Shown here: in pieces, positions 9,034 to 64,000 of the stretch
Layout: every line of letters begins with the position of its first letter
Position numbering within the stretch: position 1 is the first letter of the stretch
Source of the DNA: Rhodothermales bacterium
GTDB taxonomy: Bacteria > Bacteroidota > Rhodothermia > Rhodothermales > VXPQ01
DNA length: 64,000 nucleotides
Assembly (NCBI GenBank): GCA_951812335.1
Contig: OX638293.1
Location: 2,246,731 to 2,310,730, forward strand
Direction of reading: 5' to 3'
The notes under the pieces: generated by a model
Seen by the model: the letters and a program-made list of their open reading frames with translations, nothing else
What the model was told of the DNA's origin: nothing
Database searches by the model: none
Made by a program: the position numbers and the translations under genes

Positions 9034-9361
9034 GGGATACTGTGATCAAAACCACTTCTCCCGGCACTCCACGTTCGTATGTGAAGGACATCATGATTCC
9101 ATCGTCGGAATTAAGGATACTCTGATCAAAACCACTTCGCCCGGCGCTTTACTTTCGCGCGTACAGGACATCATGATTCCATCGTCGGAATCAGCGGGAA
9201 ACCCTGCGGATTCGGGGCATTGCGGACGTGAAGCGCCCTTCGGGAGGCTGCGGGGGTTGCGCTCGCCGCGTCATTCCTCATTATGTGGGGCCTGCCACAC
9301 TACTTCGTCATTCCTTGTCGGCGAACCCCTCTGAGCTTTGCGGATTTAATCAGAGTATTCC
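9034..9361 (+). repeat. dispersed TIR-bounded repeat, copy 1 (left end duplicated)
   Basis: Copy of the dispersed element also seen at 23734 and 63172. The left inverted repeat (GGATACTSTGATCAA form) occurs twice, at 9034 and 9114, because the first 78 bp, including 'ACATCATGATTCCATCGTCG', are tandemly duplicated. The middle segment 'GAAGCGCCCTTCGGGAGGC' and the hairpin ATGTGG-GGCCTG-CCACAC follow, and the right end is 'TTTAATCAGAGTATTCC', the inverted complement of the left end. No coding capacity. It lies just upstream of the IS1595-type element. Bases 8927-9033 before it show nothing recognisable. Confidence 0.85.
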
Positions 9362-11268: not shown

Positions 11269-11387
11269 CCTTAAGATACTCTGACTACGTCCGTAAAGCT
11301 CAGAGGCTGAAAGGGGTGCACTGGCAGGGAACGACGAAGCAGTACGGCAGGCCCCATATGATGAGGAATGACGCAGCCAGCGTGCCC
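11269..11387 (-). repeat. dispersed TIR repeat, copy 2 (right half, inverted)
   Basis: Minus-strand reading matches the right 120 bp of the copies at 23734 and 63172: 'GCTGGCTGCGTCATTCCTC', then the hairpin in the form ATATGG-GGCCTG-CCGTAC, then 'CAGCCTCTGAGCTTTACGG' and the right end 'AGTCAGAGTATCTTAAGG'. The G-C pair of the hairpin in other copies has become A-T here, a compensatory change. The left half is missing. The remaining gap up to the next gene (11388-11663) holds nothing I recognise. Confidence 0.75.
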
Positions 11388-11663: not shown

Positions 11664-11936
11664 ATGGAGTACAAGGAACTGCTTGAGCATGGCATCGCCA
11701 CGAAGGACTTCGTTCGGACCGAGATTGCAGGAGTTCGGACCGAGATTGCAGAGGTACGGACCGAGATTGCGGAAGTACGGACCGAGGTTGCAGAGGTACG
11801 GACGGGAATTTCGGACCTCCGTGCCGAGGTTAAAGATGGAGAATCCAGGATCATCAAATGGGTTGTCGGAACGACTATCGCCGCTGCCCTTGTTTTCCTC
11901 GGTATCCTGAACCTGATTGGGCTGAATTTTCAATAA
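11664..11936 (+). CDS. heptad-repeat coiled-coil protein with C-terminal membrane anchor
   Basis: 90 residues from the ATG at 11664; in-frame ATGs at 11541 and 11628 are possible but add unlike sequence. After 'MEYKELLEHGIATKDFV' come tandem heptads of the type RTEIAEV (RTEIAGV, RTEIAEV, RTEIAEV, RTEVAEV, RTGISDL), encoded by near-identical 21-bp DNA repeats at about 11727-11831. A single transmembrane helix 'WVVGTTIAAALVFLGILNLIGL' ends the protein. This is the general architecture of DUF1640-type/CCDC90-like short coiled-coil membrane proteins. The likely state is a membrane-anchored homo-oligomer with the coil in the cytoplasm. Function unknown. The gene sits between repeat copy 2 and a truncated transporter, in an accessory region. 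Confidence 0.6.
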   Translation: MEYKELLEHGIATKDFVRTEIAGVRTEIAEVRTEIAEVRTEVAEVRTGISDLRAEVKDGESRIIKWVVGTTIAAALVFLGILNLIGLNFQ

Positions 11937-15783: not shown

Positions 15784-15889
15784 CAAACAAAAAACGCCTC
15801 GGAATCGCCGTTGTCGGCTATCCCAAGGCGTTTTGTAGTGGCGTGCCCGGGAGGATTCGAACCCCCGGCCTTCTGATCCGTAGTCAGAC
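15784..15889. repeat. attachment-site-like direct repeat, left (tRNA-Arg 3' half plus terminator)
   Basis: About 106 bp nearly identical to 17571-17677: the post-tRNA terminator hairpin and the tRNA-Arg sequence from the CCA end through the anticodon stem. Identity stops abruptly after GTAGTCAGAC at 15889. The two copies are 1,788 bp apart and enclose the AbiE gene pair, the classical outcome of site-specific integration into the 3' part of a tRNA gene. Bases 15597-15783 before it hold only the dehalogenase promoter region and nothing else I recognise. Confidence 0.85.
15838..15889 (-). pseudogene. tRNA-Arg 3'-half relic
   Basis: Minus-strand reading gives the anticodon loop and stem, variable loop, T-arm and acceptor 3' strand of the tRNA-Arg(ACG) found intact at 17627-17703, including the encoded CCA. 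The 5' half (acceptor 5' strand and D-arm) is replaced by unrelated DNA, so it cannot fold as tRNA. Confidence 0.85.
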
Positions 15890-15976
15890 TATAGCTGCGT
15901 TCGATAGAAACCAATGGGCACTTTGTGTCAAATCCTTGGTATAAATGCATAATTACCGATATTTTCAACTAAAGCC

Positions 15977-16579
15977 ATGTCTGATTCTCCTATCGATCAG
16001 GTGCTCGATGTCGTCCGGCAGCACGGGATACTGCGCCCCCGAGACCTGGATCGCTATAGCCTCCCACGCCAATACCTGCACCGGCTCTATCGGCGCGGTG
16101 AACTCGTCCGGCTCGCTCGCGGCCTCTATGCGCTCCCCAACCACGATCTGACTGAGCATCACGATCTGGCTGAGACAAGCACGCGGATGCCTCATGGAGT
16201 CATCTGTCTCCTTTCCGCCCTCCGCTTCCATAATCTCACCACACAACTCCCCCGCGAGGTCTGGATAGCCATTGAACAAAAAGCCTGGCGTCCTACGGGG
16301 CTGACGATTCCGCTGCGCCTCGTCTACATGTCGGGGCAGGCATTCGAAACCGGTATCGAGACACACGAGGTGGAGGGTGTCGCCGTACGCGTCTACAACG
16401 CAGCCAAGACTGTCGCCGACTGTTTCAAATTCAGGAACAAGGTCGGCCTGGATGTCGCCACCGAGGCACTGCGGGACTATCGTCGCCGGCATCGCCAGCG
16501 TCTGGACGACCTGTGGCGCTACGCGAAAATCGACCGGGTAGATCGTGTGATGCGCCCTTATCTGGACATGCTGTCATAA
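15977..16579 (+). CDS. abiEi: AbiEi-type antitoxin (type IV toxin-antitoxin)
   Basis: 200 residues. N-terminal winged-helix segment 'VVRQHGILRPRDLDRYSLPR' and 'YLHRLYRRGELVRLARGLYA' is the DNA-binding 'AbiEi antitoxin N-terminal' pattern (Y/LxRLxxxGxLxRxxRGxY). The C-terminal domain has 'ICLLSALRFHNLTTQLP', 'VWIAIEQKAW' and 'VYNAAKTVADCFKFRNKVG', all typical. AbiEi antitoxins repress their own promoter and counteract the AbiEii nucleotidyltransferase without binding it. The toxin gene follows after 10 bp. The pair provides phage abortive infection and/or cassette maintenance. It lies just inside the left tRNA-derived repeat. Confidence 0.92.
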   Translation: MSDSPIDQVLDVVRQHGILRPRDLDRYSLPRQYLHRLYRRGELVRLARGLYALPNHDLTEHHDLAETSTRMPHGVICLLSALRFHNLTTQLPREVWIAIEQKAWRPTGLTIPLRLVYMSGQAFETGIETHEVEGVAVRVYNAAKTVADCFKFRNKVGLDVATEALRDYRRRHRQRLDDLWRYAKIDRVDRVMRPYLDMLS

Positions 16580-16589
16580 AGAGATAACC

Positions 16590-17516
16590 ATGAGTCGAGA
16601 TCAGCTTGCCAATGTGTCTGCCTCCGTACGGCAGCGCCTGCTCAACCAGGCACGCGCACAGGGTAAGGATTATCAGGTCTTGCTCACACGCTATGTCCTG
16701 GAGCGCTTTCTGTACCGTCTTAGCCAGTCTCCATACCGAAACCGCTTCGTGGTCAAGGGCGCTATACTGTTTCTGCTTTGGGAAGGCGAATTTCACCGTA
16801 CCACGCGCGACCTGGACCTGCTGGCTTTCGATTCCAGTGAGAGCGCTCGCCTGGAAGCAGCTGTCCGAGAGATATGCGCGATAAAAATCGATGAGGAAGA
16901 TGGTGTCGTGTTTCGCCCGGAGACCGTTCGTGGTCGCGCGATCCGCGAGGATCGTATCCATGATGGCGTACGCCTCACTGTGGAGGCTCACCTTGGCTCA
17001 GCACGCCTTCCACTGCAGATCGACATCGGCTTTGGCGATGCGATCATCCCGACACCGGAGATAGCGGCCTTCCCGGTGTTGCTGGACTTGCCAACGCCTA
17101 TACTGCATGTCTACCCGAAGGAAACCGTGGTGACGGAGAAATTTCAGGCAATGGTCGAGCTTGGTATGATCAACAGCCGCATGAAGGATTTCTACGATCT
17201 CTGGTATCTGTCTCGTCACTTCGCATTCGACGGGGCAACCCTCTTGCAAGCAATCAAGGCAACGTTTGAGCGCCGGGGCACATCGCTGCAATCTGAGCGT
17301 CCGCTTGCCCTGACCGCTGAGTTCATCGGCGATACGGCAAAACAGACGCAGTGGAACGCCTTCCTGCGTCGAGGAGGACTGAAAATTGAATTGGTGACGC
17401 TGCAAGAAGTGATCGATATCCTTAATGATTTCCTCTGGCCCCTCGCTTCGGCAGCAGCTACTGGGAGCTCCTTTGAATCAGAATGGCCGCCCGCCGGTCC
17501 TTGGCGACCCGTATAA
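16590..17516 (+). CDS. abiEii: AbiEii nucleotidyltransferase toxin
   Basis: 308 residues. The nucleotidyltransferase core is at about 45-85: 'RFVVKGAILFLLWEG' (GG/GA-type loop) and 'RTTRDLDLLAF' with the two catalytic Asp of the DxD motif, followed by the conserved 'LQIDIGFGDAI' third acidic strand. 'PKETVVTEKFQAMVELG' and 'RMKDFYDLWYLSRHF' are the conserved C-terminal lysine and DFYDLW box of the AbiEii/DUF1814 family. Toxins of this family (such as MenT) transfer nucleotides to tRNA acceptor ends, blocking translation; whether this one targets tRNA is inference. It is in an operon with abiEi and ends 54 bp before the right direct repeat. Confidence 0.92.
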   Translation: MSRDQLANVSASVRQRLLNQARAQGKDYQVLLTRYVLERFLYRLSQSPYRNRFVVKGAILFLLWEGEFHRTTRDLDLLAFDSSESARLEAAVREICAIKIDEEDGVVFRPETVRGRAIREDRIHDGVRLTVEAHLGSARLPLQIDIGFGDAIIPTPEIAAFPVLLDLPTPILHVYPKETVVTEKFQAMVELGMINSRMKDFYDLWYLSRHFAFDGATLLQAIKATFERRGTSLQSERPLALTAEFIGDTAKQTQWNAFLRRGGLKIELVTLQEVIDILNDFLWPLASAAATGSSFESEWPPAGPWRPV

Positions 17517-17570
17517 CGCCAATCATCCCCCCTCATCCCTACGTCTCGATAGCCAAAAGGGGGAGTTTTC

Positions 17571-17705
<135 letters not shown>

Positions 17706-19517: not shown

Positions 19518-21122
19518 TCAACGAGCCATCGGCATCGCAGCCGACACGGACTCGCGCCAGGCGTGAAGCCGGGCGCGCAGTTCGGCGGCTTTCGCCGGCT
19601 GCTCGGCGGCCAGGTCACGCTGCTCGCCAGGGTCGTTGTCCAGATCGAAGAGCTGCACCGTGCCGTTCTCGAAGTACTCGAGCAGCTTGTAGGGGCCTGC
19701 TCGAATGGCGCCGCCGGGGCTCTGCATGCCGTGATTGCTGTAATGCGGGAAGTGCCAGTAGATCGCATCGCGTTCGAACGTGCCGCCTTGTAGGGCGGCG
19801 GCAAAGCTCACGCCGTCGACGTGCTGGTCGGACCTGGCGGGCAGTCCGGCCATCTCGAGCAGGGTCGGATAGAAATCCGTGCTGATCACCGGCTCGTCGC
19901 GGACCCCGCCGGTCTGGCCCCCGCCCGGCCAGCGCACGATGAGGGGCACCCGGATACCGCCTTCGTACAGCCAGCCCTTGGCCCCCCGCAGGGGCAGATT
20001 CGAGGTAGAGTAGGCGACGTCCAGCCAGTCCGGGTCCACGACTCGCTCGGGATAACCGAAGTTGGCTGCCGCCATGCCGCCGTTGTCCGAGTAGAAAACG
20101 ATGATCGTGTGCTCGGTCAGCCCCAGTTCCTCAAGGGTGCGGAGCACGCGTCCCATGCTCTCGTCGACGGCGGTGACCATCGCCGCGAACTCGACGTTGT
20201 CCTGGTGTTGCTTGATCGGGATCGTGCGCATCGGCAGCACCCGGTGCTCCCGATGTGAGGGCTCCTGCTGCAAAGAATCCAGTTGGGCGCGAGAGAGCGG
20301 CTCGGGATCATCGGGGTTACCTTCGAGGACAAAGGCCGGCCCCGTGGAAGGCGCTGCTTGCGCCAGCTTGCTCCGGTATCTCGTGACCAGATCCGGGCGT
20401 CCCTCGATCGGGTCGTGCACCGCGAAGTGCGAGAGGTAGAGGAAGAACGGCTCTTCGCCGCTTTGCTCGATGAACTCGACCGCAAAGTCGGCGAGGCGGT
20501 CGGTCAGGTACTCGTCGTCCTCTCCTTCGACCGTCAGGCCCTTCATCAGGTAGGGCGGAAAGTAGCCGCCGCGTGGGGTCGAGCCGGGGAAGTCGGGCGC
20601 TTGCACGTCGAAGCCCTGGTTCAGTGGTCCGGCCTCGCCGCCGCCAAGGTGCCACTTGCCGAAGATGGCCGTGCGGTAGCCGTGCTCCTTGAAGGCCTCC
20701 GCCAGCGTGACCTCTTCAAGCGGGAGGGCGGCCAACTTCTCGGCGCTCAGCATCTGCTCGAAGGCATGTTCTCTGCGGCCCGGCAACCAGTCCGTCAGCC
20801 GCAGCCGTGCCGGGTACTTGCCGGTCATGAGCGCCGCGCGGGTGGGCGAGCAGACGTGCGCCGCCGCGTAGGCGTTCGTGAAGCGCACGCCCTGCTCGGC
20901 GAGTCGGTCGATATTCGGCGTCTCGTAGAACGAACTGCCGAAGACGCCGATATCGCTCCAGCCCAGGTCGTCGACCAGGAAGAAGACGACGTTTGGCGGT
21001 CTTTCCTGCGCAGCGAGTGCGGTCGGAAGGATCAGCGCAAGGAGCCACGCTGCGAACAGGCGGCCCATCGCGGATTGCATTTTTTTGTTAATCGACATGT
21101 CGATAAGGGATTTGGAAGACAT
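19518..21122 (-). CDS. secreted arylsulfatase-family (S1) sulfatase
   Basis: S1 sulfatase of about 520 residues. Start of domain 'PPNVVFFLVDDLGWSDIGVF' binds calcium through the Asp pair; the formylglycine motif is 'CSPTRAALMTGKYPARL' (CxPxR with Cys as the modified residue); 'AIFGKWHLGG', 'VFYSDNGG' and 'GAKGWLYEGGIRVPLIVRWP' are canonical. It hydrolyses sulfate esters, probably of polysaccharides, in the periplasm or outside. Signal peptide 'RLFAAWLLALILPTALAAQ'. The start is uncertain: the ATG at 21122 lies in a copy of the thiS translation start ('MSSKSLIDMSINKKM' against ThiS '[15 protein letters not shown]'); ATGs at 21080 or 21068 give a conventional signal peptide. The gene interrupts the thi operon and needs a formylglycine-generating enzyme, not seen here. 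Confidence 0.92.
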   Translation of the reverse strand: MSSKSLIDMSINKKMQSAMGRLFAAWLLALILPTALAAQERPPNVVFFLVDDLGWSDIGVFGSSFYETPNIDRLAEQGVRFTNAYAAAHVCSPTRAALMTGKYPARLRLTDWLPGRREHAFEQMLSAEKLAALPLEEVTLAEAFKEHGYRTAIFGKWHLGGGEAGPLNQGFDVQAPDFPGSTPRGGYFPPYLMKGLTVEGEDDEYLTDRLADFAVEFIEQSGEEPFFLYLSHFAVHDPIEGRPDLVTRYRSKLAQAAPSTGPAFVLEGNPDDPEPLSRAQLDSLQQEPSHREHRVLPMRTIPIKQHQDNVEFAAMVTAVDESMGRVLRTLEELGLTEHTIIVFYSDNGGMAAANFGYPERVVDPDWLDVAYSTSNLPLRGAKGWLYEGGIRVPLIVRWPGGGQTGGVRDEPVISTDFYPTLLEMAGLPARSDQHVDGVSFAAALQGGTFERDAIYWHFPHYSNHGMQSPGGAIRAGPYKLLEYFENGTVQLFDLDNDPGEQRDLAAEQPAKAAELRARLHAWRESVSAAMPMAR

Positions 21123-21146
21123 GGTCCATCCGCCTGTGTGGGCGGC
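21085..21146. repeat. copy of the thiS start region in front of the sulfatase
   Basis: About 60 bp matching 22188-22248 at about 85%: the ThiS codons 1-11, its ribosome-binding region (GGCGGATGGACC before ATG) and leader are repeated immediately upstream of the sulfatase coding region. Confidence 0.75.
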
Positions 21147-21161
21147 GTATTCGTATGGAAG

Positions 21162-21990: not shown

Positions 21991-22218
21991 CTACCCTCCC
22001 TGTTGCGCAGCAATCACTTCAATCCGGTCGCCGGACCGGATGGCATGGTCGTCCCATGTCCCCTTCGGGGCTACCGTGTCGTTCACCGCCACGGCCATGC
22101 CCTTTGCATCGGCCGGATCGAATCCCATTTCCCGCACCAGTACGGACACCGTCGCCTGCGCCGGTACGGAATGCGTTTTCCCGTTGATCGATACGTCGAT
22201 GAGAGATTCGGAAGACAT
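21991..22218 (-). CDS. thiS: sulfur carrier protein ThiS
   Basis: 75 residues, ubiquitin-like. '[20 protein letters not shown]' is the first beta-hairpin, '[18 protein letters not shown]' the central strand, and the protein ends in '[10 protein letters not shown]', the diglycine that is adenylated and thiocarboxylated. It delivers sulfur to ThiG. Followed 1 bp later by thiG. Its first codons and ribosome-binding region recur in front of the sulfatase gene at 21085-21146. Confidence 0.95.
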
Positions 22219-22329
22219 GGTCCATCCGCCTGTTTGTGCGGCGCATGCCGTGCGCTGTATTTTGCGCGGCGGCGCATGCCGGGCGCCGCATCATCATCAT
22301 CATGATCATCCGGCATGGCGCGTCCGTCG

Positions 22330-23733: not shown

Positions 23734-23993
23734 GAGGATACTCTGATCAAATACCGCTTCGATCAGCGCTTCACCCTCGAACATAAAAGATATTGTAATT
23801 GCATCGTTGAAATTAGCGGGAAACGTGCGAATTCGGGGCGTCGCGAACGTGAAGCGCCCTTCGGGAGGCAGAGAGGGACACGCTGGCCGTGTCATTCCTC
23901 ATTATGTGGGGCCTGCCACATTGCTTCGTCATTCCTTGCCAGCGCCACCCCTTTCAGCCTCTGAATCTTTGCGGATTTAACCAGAGTATCCTT
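23734..23993 (+). repeat. dispersed TIR repeat, copy 3 (full length, 260 bp)
   Basis: Left end GAGGATACTCTGATCAAA, right end TTAACCAGAGTATCCTTG, its inverted complement. Just inside the left end, CTGATC and GATCAG form a second small hairpin. The centre has GAATTCGGGGCGTCGCG and GAAGCGCCCTTCGGGAGGC, then direct repeats of GTCATTCCT on both sides of the hairpin ATGTGG-GGCCTG-CCACAT. About 85% identical to 63172-63434. No transposase ORF inside. Confidence 0.9.
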
Positions 23994-42330: not shown

Positions 42331-42672
42331 TTAGTCGAAGGGCGCCGCATAGTGCGTCTTCGTCACCGACACCGAATTCGCGGGACTGGCCGAATCGCTA
42401 ACGATCAGTCTAACACCGCCACCGTGTCCGCCGCAGAGTCTTGCGCCCCGTCGTTCACCATCAGCGTGAACGTCAGCACCGAGTTCGACAGAAGCTGCGT
42501 CGGCGCCGTGAACGTCGGCGACTGCGCCGTGGTACTCGACAGCATAGTCCCCGCCGGAGCCGTCCAGGCGTAGATCAGCGATGCGCCCTCAGGGTCCGGA
42601 TAGCGTCACCGTCGCTCCCTCCGCAACCGTTTGGTCGGTGTCTGCGTTGGCCGTCGGCGCGTCATTTGCTGA
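42331..42672 (-). pseudogene. frameshifted Ig/PKD-like domain relic downstream of the LRR gene
   Basis: Minus-strand translation in three successive frames gives one coherent surface-protein tail: 'SANDAPTANADTDQTVAEGA', then after a shift near 42600 'EGASLIYAWTAPAGTMLSST', 'TFTAPTQLLSNSVLTFTLMV' and 'NDGAQDSAADTVAV', then after another shift near 42407 'LIVSDSASPANSVSVTKTHY' and a stop at 42331. The region joins the LRR gene (shift at about 42672). Either the LRR protein once continued into this domain, or two genes were fused and decayed. Confidence 0.7.
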
Positions 42673-45236
42673 TTGCAGATGTTGTCGCTGTCGCCTGAGA
42701 ATAGAGTGAGATTGTCAAGCCATTGCTGGAATGCGGTACTCCCCGGGACACACAGCCCGTTGTCGACATAAAAGTGAAGGAGATTGTCCAGGTTGACAAA
42801 CTCCGCCGGGATCGAGCCCGAAAGAGAGTTGTTGTTGAGATCCAGTGTCACGAGGTTGGTCAAGTCGCCCAACGCCGCCGGGATCGAACCCGAAAGGGAG
42901 TCGCTGCGGAGATTCAGGTTTTCGAGGTTCGTCAAGTCGCCCAACTCCGCAGGGATCGAACCCGAAAGGGAGTTGAAACTGAGATCCAGTAACTCGAGGC
43001 TGATCAAGCCGCCCAACGCCGCAGGGATCGAGCCCGAAAGGGAGTTGTTGTTGAGCTCCAGTCTCGTGAGATTGATCAAGTCGCCCAACGCCGCCGGGAT
43101 CGAACCCGAAAGGTCGTTGCCGAAGAGATACAGTCCATCGAGGTTGGTCAAGTCGCCCAGCTCCGCAGGGATCGAACCCGAAAGGGAGTTGAAACCGAGA
43201 TCCAGTCTCGTGAGGTTGGTCAAGTCGCCCAGCTCCGCCGGGATCGAGCCCGAAAGGGAGCTCGCTTGGAGATACAGTCCCTCGAGGTTGGTCAAGTCGC
43301 CCAACGCCGCAGGGATCGAGCCCGAAAGGGAGTTGTAACCGAGATTCAGGTTCACGAGGTTGGTCAAGTCGCCCAACGCCGCCGGGATCGAACCCGAAAG
43401 GGAATTGCGCATGAGATTCAGGTATTCGAGGCTGGTCAAGTCGCCCAACGCCGCAGGGATCGAGCCCGAAAGGGAGTTGCTGCGGAGATTCAGGTATTCG
43501 AGGTTGGTCAAGTCGCCCAACGCCGCCGGAATCGATCCCGAAAGGGAGTTGTATTGGAGATAGAGTATCTCGAGGTTGGTCAAGTCGCCCAGCGCCGCCG
43601 GAATCGATCCCGAAAGGGAGTTCCGGTCGAGATTCAGAAAAACCACCCGTCCGGCGTCATCGGTCGTGACGCCGTACCACGTACCGATGGCGGCGCTACT
43701 TTTCCAGTTGGTATTGGTTTTCCAATTGTCCCCGTCGGTCGAGTCGTAGAGCGCGACCAGCGCCGCTCTGTCGTTATGAGCGTCCGCCGTCACCGTCACC
43801 GTCACCGTCACCGTGTCCGTGACGGTATCACACGAATTTGTCGCCGCGATCGTGTACGTCGTCGTCCTATCCGGAGAAACCGATCGCTCTCCCGATGCCC
43901 CAACCGAACCGATGCCCTGATCGATCGATACGAGCGTAGCGTGCTCGGACGACCAGACAAGCGTCGAACTACCCCCGGGATCGATCATACCCGGAGACGC
44001 GGACAAACTCACCGAAGGAGGCAGATGAACCTGCACGGTTGCACGGTCAAATTTGCTTCCTCCCGGACCTCTCGCCACGATCGTGTATGTCGTCGTCCTA
44101 TCCGGAGAAACCGATCGCTCACCCTTGGTCTCAACCGTACCGATGCCCTGATCGATCGATACGCTCGTAGTGTGCTCGGACGACCAGCTAAGCGTTGACG
44201 ATACCCCTTTGCAAATCGTGTCCGGCGAGGCCGAAAACGTGACCGAAGTAGACTGATTAACCGTGGACGCCGACAAATTCACCGAAGCAGGCGCATGGCC
44301 CGCCGGTTTTGACCGGTTCAATCCGTTGCCGCTGGCGCTCGCGGTCGTACTCGCCGTCGAACTCTTCCCGGATACCGATTCGGATTCGGATATCGACTCC
44401 GAAACGATCGGACGCCAATCGATCATCTGGTACGCATCGTCGTCCGCGAATCCAAGCAATTGCACATCGAAAGCATCCGAAGACGTTCCGCAGCCCGAAA
44501 CGTCTTTCGGGATCTCCCCTTCCGCTTCGCCGGATATGGCGCCATAAAAACGACGGTGCAACACGGTAGACACATCCAGGCTATCTCCCTCGAAAACGAT
44601 TCGTCCGAACCGACCGCCCGCGCAAACAGCTTTTCTCCACCCAATATCGTTATAGATCGATATATCCTCAAGGATATGCGTCCTGGCCCCGATGGCCTGG
44701 GACGTAATAGCGATATCGCCGTTATCCCATGTGAAATACGTATCGGTATCGACATCGACAGCGGAGCGAAAAAGGACCAGCAACGCATCGCCTCTCGCAG
44801 GACTATCGAAAGAGAGGGCGTACAAAGCATCCCGTCCAAGCGCGGGAACGCCTCCCTCTCCATGGATATCTACCCCCTCCGAATGCGCGGCCCCCCAGTG
44901 GTATATCGTACCCTTCGCAGGTATGCCGAGCGTAGCGTAACCGGTCTCGTTATAATCCGTATGCCAGGATTTGACATGTACGCGCACGCTATCCGGATTG
45001 CCGTCGGCGCTCAAGATCCGACCCAAAAGCGCATACCGATCCAGGGAAGACGCGCCCTCTCCTGGAACGCCGCCTGCACGGGCCGTACTGTCCCCGGGGG
45101 CGACACGCGCATTAGCCGCCGCAGACGGATCGACATCGTCCAGGCCCGTCAGCGCCCCGTCGTCGCACGCGCTCAGCGCCAGGAGCGAGACCGTTAAAGC
45201 TGCCATACCCGCGACGATCCAGCATGCAGGTCTCAT
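42606..45236 (-). CDS. surface lipoprotein with 12 leucine-rich repeats
   Basis: 876 residues. Signal peptide with lipobox 'SLLALSACDD'. The N-domain (40-270) is unrecognised, contains three Cys and is followed by a Ser-rich linker ('SESISESESVSGKSSTAST'). Two Ig-like repeats share 'DQGIG.V..(K/S)GERSVSPDRTTTYTI' (about 330-460). An LRR N-cap 'ALVALYDSTDGDNWKTNTNW' precedes 12 repeats of 24 residues, each of the type (N)SLSGSIPAALGDLTNLxxLxL, the plant-specific class, then an LRR C-cap 'CVPGSTAFQQWLDNL'. The last 20 residues (MTRRRPTQTPT...) are out-of-frame translation of an Ig-like module, so the C-terminus is a frameshift product. Probably an adhesin-like surface protein. Confidence 0.88.
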   Translation of the reverse strand: MRPACWIVAGMAALTVSLLALSACDDGALTGLDDVDPSAAANARVAPGDSTARAGGVPGEGASSLDRYALLGRILSADGNPDSVRVHVKSWHTDYNETGYATLGIPAKGTIYHWGAAHSEGVDIHGEGGVPALGRDALYALSFDSPARGDALLVLFRSAVDVDTDTYFTWDNGDIAITSQAIGARTHILEDISIYNDIGWRKAVCAGGRFGRIVFEGDSLDVSTVLHRRFYGAISGEAEGEIPKDVSGCGTSSDAFDVQLLGFADDDAYQMIDWRPIVSESISESESVSGKSSTASTTASASGNGLNRSKPAGHAPASVNLSASTVNQSTSVTFSASPDTICKGVSSTLSWSSEHTTSVSIDQGIGTVETKGERSVSPDRTTTYTIVARGPGGSKFDRATVQVHLPPSVSLSASPGMIDPGGSSTLVWSSEHATLVSIDQGIGSVGASGERSVSPDRTTTYTIAATNSCDTVTDTVTVTVTVTADAHNDRAALVALYDSTDGDNWKTNTNWKSSAAIGTWYGVTTDDAGRVVFLNLDRNSLSGSIPAALGDLTNLEILYLQYNSLSGSIPAALGDLTNLEYLNLRSNSLSGSIPAALGDLTSLEYLNLMRNSLSGSIPAALGDLTNLVNLNLGYNSLSGSIPAALGDLTNLEGLYLQASSLSGSIPAELGDLTNLTRLDLGFNSLSGSIPAELGDLTNLDGLYLFGNDLSGSIPAALGDLINLTRLELNNNSLSGSIPAALGGLISLELLDLSFNSLSGSIPAELGDLTNLENLNLRSDSLSGSIPAALGDLTNLVTLDLNNNSLSGSIPAEFVNLDNLLHFYVDNGLCVPGSTAFQQWLDNLTLFSGDSDNICNQQMTRRRPTQTPTKRLRRERR
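42759..43622 (-). repeat. 72-bp tandem repeats encoding the LRR array (12 units)
   Basis: Twelve contiguous 72-bp units, 864 bp, each coding one 24-residue LRR. The consensus block with CCCGAAAGGGAG recurs in nearly every unit, and differences concentrate at the surface-exposed L-x-L positions. The high DNA identity implies recent expansion or gene conversion, and the array may vary in length between strains. Confidence 0.9.
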
Positions 45237-45919: not shown

Positions 45920-45962
45920 TTAAGATACTCTGATTAAGTCCACTTCGATCAGAGTACCTTTA
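45920..45962. repeat. dispersed TIR repeat, mini form a
   Basis: Only the two inverted ends are present: TTAAGATACTCTGAT, an 11-15 bp spacer (TAAGTCCACTTCG), and ATCAGAGTACCTTTAA. It makes a near-perfect hairpin and ends 6 bp before the start codon of the SGNH gene at 45969. Confidence 0.8.
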
Positions 45963-56570: not shown

Positions 56571-56684
56571 CTTGATCAGAGGATGAGAGGGGCGCGTCAC
56601 GTCCGCGACGCCCCGAATTCGCAGTATTTACCGCTGATTCTGACCGTGAAGTGCTGAGCGAAGCGGTTTTGGTCAGACTATCCT
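56571..56684 (-). repeat. dispersed TIR repeat, degenerate inverted copy
   Basis: Minus-strand reading: AGGATAGTCTGACCAAAACC, then 'GCTTCGCTCAGCACTTCACG', 'AATCAGCGGTAAATACTGCG', 'AATTCGGGGCGTCGCGGACG', and a closing ATCCTCTGATCAAG. It keeps the left half of the element; the hairpin half is deleted. The copy ends exactly at the sufA stop codon (56683). Confidence 0.7.
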
Positions 56685-57052: not shown

Positions 57053-57093
57053 CAGGATGCTCTGATCAATTCCGCGAAGTGCAGAGCATCCGT
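57053..57093. repeat. dispersed TIR repeat, mini form b
   Basis: AGGATGCTCTGATCAATTCC, short spacer, then GTGCAGAGCATCC. Near-perfect hairpin in the sufA/sufB intergenic region. Confidence 0.7.
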
Positions 57094-57151: not shown

Positions 57152-57189
57152 GGATACTCTGATCAAGTCCACTTCGATCAGCGTATCCT
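57152..57189. repeat. dispersed TIR repeat, mini form c
   Basis: GGATACTCTGATCAAGTCC then ACTTCGATCAGCGTATCC, a palindrome of both element ends. Located 56 bp before the sufB start, so it may lie in the sufB leader. Confidence 0.8.
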
Positions 57190-63171: not shown

Positions 63172-63434
63172 AAAGGATACTCTGATCAAAACCGCTTCGA
63201 TCAGCGCTTCGCGTTCGTGCATATAAGGATATCATAATTGCATCGTTGAAATTAAGCGAAAAACGCTGCTAATTCGGGGCGGCGCCGGCGTGAAGCGCCC
63301 TTCGGGAGGCTGCGAGAAGCACGCTGGCTGCGTCATTCCTCATTATGTGGGGCCTGCCACATTGCTTCGTCATTCCTTGCCAGCGCACCCCTCACAGCCT
63401 CTGAACTTCGCAGACTTAATCAGAGTATCCTTAA
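63172..63434 (+). repeat. dispersed TIR repeat, copy 4 (full length, 263 bp)
   Basis: Left end AAAGGATACTCTGATCAAAA and right end TTAATCAGAGTATCCTTAAG, its inverted complement over about 17 bp. Same inner order as copy 3: CTGATC/GATCAG hairpin, GAATTCGGGGC-like centre, GAAGCGCCCTTCGGGAGGC, GTCATTCCT direct repeats around ATGTGG-GGCCTG-CCACAT. It fills the whole space from the sufT stop to the modB start. Confidence 0.92.
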
Positions 63435-63461
63435 GTGACCCCACATCTTTTGACAGGCGCC

Positions 63462-64000
63462 ATGCTCACGCTGGCCGAATGGGAAGCGGTCGGACTTTCG
63501 CTGCGCGTTGCTGCGGTGGCCGTCCTGATTACGGCGCCGATCGGGGTGGCGCTGGCGTATCTGCTTGCGCGGAACAGGTTGCCTCTGTCGTTTGTGGTGG
63601 AGAATCTCGTCCAGTTACCACTTGTGCTTCCACCCGTGGTCACGGGATGGATGCTGCTTATTCTGCTGAGCCCGGAATCGGTGTTCGGGGGCTGGCTGGA
63701 AGCAACCTTTGGTCTTCGGATCGCCTTCGGATGGTTCGGCGCCGCGGTGGCGGCAGGTATTGTCGCCTTTCCCCTGATGGTACAAACGATTCGCGTCGGA
63801 TTCGAACAGGTAGATCCTTCCTGGGAAGAGGCCGGATACGTATACGGCGGCACGCGCACGGCGGTCTTTCGTCATGTAACAGCTCCTCTTGCGGGCAGAG
63901 CCATTGCTGCGGGTATCGTGCTCGCTTTTGCCCGCGCACTGGGTGAATTCGGCGCCACGATTGTACTGGCAGGCAACATTCCGTCCGAAACGCGTACGCT
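63462..64000 (+). CDS. modB: molybdate ABC transporter permease ModB (partial, runs off the window)
   Basis: About 180 residues visible from the ATG at 63462; a GTG at 63435, at the edge of the repeat, would add 9 residues. Membrane segments 'LSLRVAAVAVLITAPIGVAL', 'FVVENLVQLPLVLPPVVTGW', 'MLLILLSPESVFGG' and 'FGAAVAAGIVAFPLMVQTIR', then the inner-membrane ABC permease EAA loop 'VDPSWEEAGYVYGGTRTAVF' and 'ALGEFGATIVLAGNIPSETR', which is characteristic of ModB. It forms the membrane channel for molybdate import with ModA and ModC, not in view. The window ends at the codon after ETRT. Confidence 0.92.
   Translation, partial: MLTLAEWEAVGLSLRVAAVAVLITAPIGVALAYLLARNRLPLSFVVENLVQLPLVLPPVVTGWMLLILLSPESVFGGWLEATFGLRIAFGWFGAAVAAGIVAFPLMVQTIRVGFEQVDPSWEEAGYVYGGTRTAVFRHVTAPLAGRAIAAGIVLAFARALGEFGATIVLAGNIPSETRT

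Follow-up and report, generated by a model that had tools for sequence, protein, structure and literature searches.

A high-copy repeat in a Rhodothermales genome, probably a MITE family with IS5-type ends

What is the short repeat that returns along the chromosome of a Rhodothermales bacterium, what carried it there, and why does its interior pair with itself? The copy that raised the question comes immediately after the stop codon of a gene for iron-sulphur assembly, near the end of a 64-kb stretch of DNA (here called the window, positions 2,246,731-2,310,730) in a genome that consists of a single 2.69-Mb contig (G000). An earlier reading of this window, made from the letters only (the sequence-only reading), had listed eight copies and described them as a MITE-like, dispersed element with no ORF and with covarying pairing. 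All eight copies were present (Table 1), and the description was supported by the many genomic copies and the strong covariation reported below. In our view the repeat is very probably a MITE, that is, a non-coding element carried along by an insertion sequence (IS) of the IS5 family, and this explanation accounts best for the evidence as a whole.

In the window, the end motif occurred 12 times with up to three mismatches, compared with 0.04 expected by chance. Genome-wide, the 15-mer GGATACTCTGATCAA was found 439 times with up to two mismatches, while its reversed control was not found at all. From the 40 scored among 287 first-look candidates of G000, 44 matches were listed. A 464-kb sample of the same genome that included the window held 47 copies (43 merged profile hits and 4 minis), which scales to about 270 per genome; the whole genome, for which a search had been proposed earlier, is thus estimated to have roughly 250-280 copies. 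No ORF spanned the repeat of about 256 bp, as had been claimed, and the 218-aa ORF at 63290-63946, which runs out of the element, gave no Pfam match. Several boundaries had to be corrected. The repeat reported at 63172-63434 was confirmed, but its ends are 15-bp inverted repeats (the terminal helix was 96.8% paired) and not 17-bp ones, the outer AA and TT being part of the 4-bp target duplication. The long form placed at 9034 consists of a duplicated 5' unit of 80 nt and, after it, a near-complete copy, and the mini forms given as 40 bp are all three exactly 37 bp long.

Table 1. Copies of the repeat in the window and parts of the copy at 63175 (window coordinates).
Feature	Position	Strand	Basis
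Extra 80-nt 5' unit, in tandem ahead of the next copy	9035..9114	+	
Near-full copy	9115..9361 (also given as 9113-9361)	+	
Half copy (3' half); full-length in the G005 locus with matching flank	11275..11385	-	
Full-length copy, target duplication TTGA/TTGA	23736..23991	+	
37-bp mini form	45923..45959	+	
Internally deleted copy; G004 retains only a remnant	56571..56684	-	
37-bp mini, second kind (3'-end loop), common to G004 and G005	57055..57091	-	
37-bp mini, TTAT/TTAC duplication; site empty in G004, G005, G003 and G001	57152..57188	+	
Left copy of target duplication, TAAA	63171..63174	.	sequence; family-wide 4-bp duplication
Full-length copy (probable MITE), GGATAC...GTATCC, 256 bp	63175..63430	+	sequence, copy comparison
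Left terminal inverted repeat GGATACTCTGATCAA	63175..63189	+	matches ends of IS5-type IS in G004
Arm A, palindromic, 5' half, GCGCTTCGCG ... CGTGAAGCGC	63204..63298	+	consensus fold
Arm B, palindromic, 3' half, GAGGCTG... / ...CAGCCTC, then CGCTGGC/GCCAGCG	63306..63401	+	consensus fold; model R1
Direct repeat GTCATTCCT, first copy	63332..63340	+	sequence; highly conserved
Tip hairpin ATGTGG-GGCCTG-CCACAT	63345..63362	+	helix 5 of counted structure
Direct repeat GTCATTCCT, second copy	63369..63377	+	sequence; highly conserved
Right terminal inverted repeat, GGATACTCTGATTAA on minus strand	63416..63430	-	sequence
Right copy of target duplication, TTAA	63431..63434	.	sequence; family-wide 4-bp duplication

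Mapping of the target duplications, which the sequence-only reading had suggested, gave a sharp length of 4 bp: in the flanks of 98 independent full copies an exact match was found 36 times at 4 bp, twice at 3 bp and once at 5 bp. The exact duplication was kept in only 37% of copies. Its consensus is TTAA/TWWA (left consensus T/C-T-A-A), and TATA and TAAA also occur. When 464 kb of G000 were compared with 400 kb of its relative G004, eight G000 copies stood opposite empty G004 sites and two cases were the reverse. For example, CATG/CATA, TTAA/TTAA and TTAT/TTAC at filled sites corresponded to CATA, TTAA and TTAT at empty ones. Because the copies carry 4-bp duplications and occupy sites that are filled in one genome and empty in the other, they are judged to be mobile-element insertions. 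In G002, copies at different sites are nearly identical (up to 98.8%), which indicates that the element moved more recently in that genome. A stop codon faced the element at 59 places, in 21 of them within 15 nt of the element edge, which is expected if TTAA-like targets containing TAA were used. At two loci (L003 and L004, with the element at 1501-1758) the copies sat centrally in perfect palindromes (GCGGCGT..ACGCCGC and GCGCCGG..CCGGCGC), perhaps terminator loops. A general preference for terminator or palindromic targets was considered and rejected, as the complementarity of the flanks of the 98 copies beyond the duplication was 0.259 versus 0.255 in shuffled flanks.

The search for an element with the same ends and a transposase, also proposed earlier, did find three IS5-family IS in G004, but all of them were broken. 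They came from a Pfam DDE_Tnp_1 (PF01609) search of the genus, in which three G004 loci (L087, L091 and L094) carried fragments of an IS5-type DDE transposase, and the 3' end of each was exactly GGATACTCTGATCAA. L094 is an IS that has lost part of its interior but retains its two ends, GGATACTCTGATTTAATCCCCGG and GGATACTCTGATCAATCCGG, and lies between TTAT and TTAA. The G004 IS fragment scored 81.8 bits against PF01609 (cut-off 23) and 138.7 bits against NF033581, just below the cut-off of 140. Outside the genus, the end core TCTGATCAA/TCTGATTTA recurs in IS relatives from G029 and G066, two genomes of other families in the order. The transposase of the relative in G029 (L177) is 328 aa long and scores 336 bits with NF033581 (cut-off 140), and one relative in G066 (L184) is bounded by a CTAA/CTAA target duplication. 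The target duplication of IS5 has been described as YTAR (PMC10359306). Beyond its ends, the interior of the repeat showed no similarity to the IS. Across the six genus genomes, of which four are drafts, a search at E<=1e-20 gave the three broken G004 copies of the partner IS and no intact one. The sole DDE_Tnp_1 match in G000 itself (L088) belongs to another IS5 group (NF033580) and was rejected as partner, its ends AGGGCGTGTTAACACTA being unrelated. From these comparisons, the partner IS seems to have disappeared from G000 before the MITE did, and most copies are probably stranded now, since the only partner copies found in the genus are the broken ones of G004, with none in the remaining five genomes. 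G066 holds several IS5_4 copies (L181, L184, L188, L189 and L190), many with stop codons and with variable ends GGA..TCTGATYAA, which are a possible source of further MITE families.

The repeat is confined to a narrow group. It was found in all six genomes of the genus and was absent from 54 other genomes of the order. A covariance model of arm B (R1) matched only the same six genomes among 244 of the class. A scan of named genomes with the exact pattern gave at least 80 matches, of which those listed were only in Rhodothermales MAGs, and no exact match to the end pattern occurred in a viral contig collection. An Rfam search of the window returned a tRNA as its sole match and none to the repeat. 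The repeat had been called new-looking; this holds for its sequence, with no Rfam match and one genus only, but not for the kind of element. In the draft genome G002, nine contigs (C3, C6, C12, C16, C17, C21, C23, C45 and C47) end inside or beside arm B, so the element appears to break MAG assemblies.

Comparison of orthologous sites revealed how copies differ in length. At the site of the copy at 63175, G000 carries 256 bp, G004 67 bp and G003 exactly 37 bp, while in G005 there may be a short remnant and in G001 no trace could be recognised. Likewise, at position 277519 of the 464-kb sample a full copy in G000 corresponds to a 37-bp mini in G004. The 37-bp stub is made of the two ends and a 7-nt loop. 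One kind of stub has its junction at ATCAG and the other at CTCTGA, both of which are short direct repeats flanking the palindromic arms. Judging from these sites, full, half and mini copies are stages of decay, and the mini and half copies are its products, not separate designed forms. The 37-bp forms presumably arose by slippage across the hairpin, since their junctions coincide with the short direct repeats that flank the arms. The mini at 57152 was seen only in G000 among the five genomes readable there, and either it was already a stub when it inserted or a full copy inserted there and soon collapsed.

The internal hairpin noticed earlier is real, but it is merely the tip of an arm of about 96 nt, and a second arm fills the 5' half. 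Similarly, the copy at 11269 does show the reported changes at its inner pairs (G-C to A-T and T-A to T-G); its outermost pair, however, is no longer A-T but A-C, and so is broken. The consensus of 110 distinct copies consists of the terminal stem and the two arms. Pairing was counted on a hand-named structure, as RNAalifold had given a poor consensus for the first alignment. In 66 copies, 92.9% of the cells were paired, compared with 31-53% in slid controls, and 97 cells were changed on both sides versus 40.6 in shuffles; the absence of such covariation would have refuted the sequence-only reading. On a tree built from unpaired columns, compensatory double changes numbered 46 by pair-wise reconstruction (2-7 in slid controls) and 33 by neutral site-wise reconstruction (0-2 in controls). 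In the tip, pair 190-213 was T-A in 57 of the 66 copies and C-G in nine and was broken in none, whereas pair 189-214, read on the plus strand, fails to pair in 24 of the 66. The pairing pattern in the arms is real and may be due to selection, to template-switch correction or to exchange of arms between subfamilies. The earlier proposal of a structure under selection at DNA or RNA level held in that pairing is kept, but not in the single-strand transposition that it had offered.

That form of movement would make the repeat a single-strand DNA transposon of the IS200/IS605 or REPIN/RAYT type, moved via its hairpins. The subterminal and internal hairpins would suit such an element, as would a size and copy number that resemble those of REPINs in the available text of PMC3116915. 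However, the inverted ends, the clear 4-bp target duplication and the match of these ends to a DDE-type IS5 transposon, on which they are identical, speak against it, and we regard it as scarcely credible. To our knowledge, IS200/605 elements have neither a target duplication nor terminal inverted repeats. The fold could also be that of a structured RNA or regulatory element (terminator, RNase site or small RNA) that works in transcripts, is under host selection and was spread as a repeat. Besides the strong covariation, the minus strand argues for this: the window copy folded with a z of -7.1 as minus-strand RNA (its z as plus-strand DNA was -2.9), and 139 mismatches would be G-U on the minus strand compared with 80 on the plus strand, although a small number of column pairs, including one in the tip, account for much of this asymmetry. 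Between tandem genes, 31 copies lay with and 16 against transcription (p=0.04), but the bias is weak and the genes were crudely called, and only six copies were located between convergent genes, compared with 21 between divergent genes. Furthermore, at many sites the close relatives have either no copy or a collapsed one, so that no given copy looks needed, and Rfam held no match. On balance, a host-selected RNA is quite improbable.

The pairing need not have been selected at all, and this is compatible with a MITE. Template switching between the halves of a palindrome, or exchange of whole arms between subfamilies, may mimic covariation, which we consider a real possibility though with somewhat less than an even chance. 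Palindromes are prone to template-switch correction; in addition, 27 of the 33 compensatory changes of the site-wise reconstruction fell on long terminal branches, and pair types were split by subfamily. Against this, the compensatory changes recurred at several pairs and in all arms, and paired columns varied less than unpaired ones (7.7% versus 12.8%). A difference between internal and terminal branches was tried as a sign of selection; it was seen when ties favoured pairs and vanished with the neutral site-wise reconstruction, and no such sign is therefore put forward. It is unlikely, but conceivable, that the two-arm fold is kept by selection on the mobile element (for example by insulation in transcripts or by end pairing) and that the 37-bp stub is itself mobile; the latter would be suggested by the species-specific stub at 57152, which has a target duplication of its own.

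If the repeat is a MITE of this type, its history could have run as follows. A DDE transposase of the IS5_4 type (NF033581), supplied in trans by an IS like the broken ones of G004, would have recognised the element by its 15-bp ends GGATACTCTGATCAA, bound them and inserted it at short AT-rich sites (TTAA/TWWA), with duplication of 4 bp. As a TAA stop codon is often part of such a site, many copies would have landed directly behind genes with little harm. The body consists of two palindromic arms that pair when single-stranded, and slippage between the short direct repeats beside the arms may have caused repeated shrinkage in place, down to a 37-bp hairpin running from end to end.

Among known elements, the nearest to this repeat are the IS5-matched MITEs of Porphyromonas gingivalis (MITE239, MITE464/PgRS, MITE700 and BrickBuilt), which are non-coding and whose ends match IS5-family IS of the same genome (PMC4596501). 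They resemble the Rhodothermales repeat in their IS5-family ends, in the lack of an internal transposase remnant and in size class. However, their ends differ (GAGACC.. or ACGTCA..), each has about 10-20 copies and the partner IS is full-length (PMC4596501), whereas our repeat has about 270 copies and only broken partner copies, in one relative. With the IS5 subgroup of NF033581 (transpos_IS5_4) it shares ends beginning GG, a 4-bp YTAR-like duplication and the terminal 15 bp of the broken G004 copies, but it has no transposase and only the ends are in common. Correia elements of Neisseria have TA-type ends; the Rhodothermales repeat differs from them in its sequence, its 4-bp TTAA-like duplication and its two separate palindromic arms. 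According to the available portions of a review (PMC10969869), Correia elements are likewise high-copy intergenic MITEs, able to form a stem-loop in transcripts and with internally deleted classes. The same portions describe QMITE1 and QMITE2 of Coxiella burnetii, which also have many shortened forms that keep the ends and a stable predicted fold; QMITE1 ranges from 39 to 400 bp, and QMITE2 makes duplications of 7-9 bp, unlike the 4 bp found here. Since the QMITEs vary in size and ERIC reaches up to 711 copies in that text (PMC10969869), neither size variation nor copy number is unprecedented, while a series of collapse at orthologous sites is not noted there for QMITEs.

The repeat is a new high-copy family of IS5-type MITE, of well-supported origin and of a kind already known; for its kind it is unusually abundant, has kept a paired fold and is often collapsed in place. 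About 270 otherwise unexplained repeats in a small genome are accounted for in this way, and their likely driver is named. The filled, collapsed and empty orthologous sites form a series in which the spread, shrinkage and death of a MITE after loss of its partner IS can be measured, and the family allows us to test why some MITEs keep a paired fold.

Other features were observed in the window. An AbiE-type toxin-antitoxin pair (AbiEi_4 at 15977-16579 and AbiEii at 16590-17516) lies within a 1.8-kb stretch (15789-17703) that has a 101-nt repeat on either side; the two repeats are 98% identical and contain the 3' part of tRNA-Arg(ACG) (17627-17703). Little room is left between them beside the two genes, and no integrase was seen; the stretch resembles a very small island that has inserted at a tRNA. 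An 876-aa protein with leucine-rich repeats is encoded at 42606-45236, and its DNA contains eleven registers of a 72-bp tandem repeat (42708-43727). A 21-bp tandem repeat, GTTCGGACCGAGATTGCAGAG, occupies 11712-11837 in about five registers. Furthermore, an 80-bp direct repeat, unrelated to the MITE, occurs at 21071-21150 and 22167-22246, 1.1 kb apart and 83% identical.
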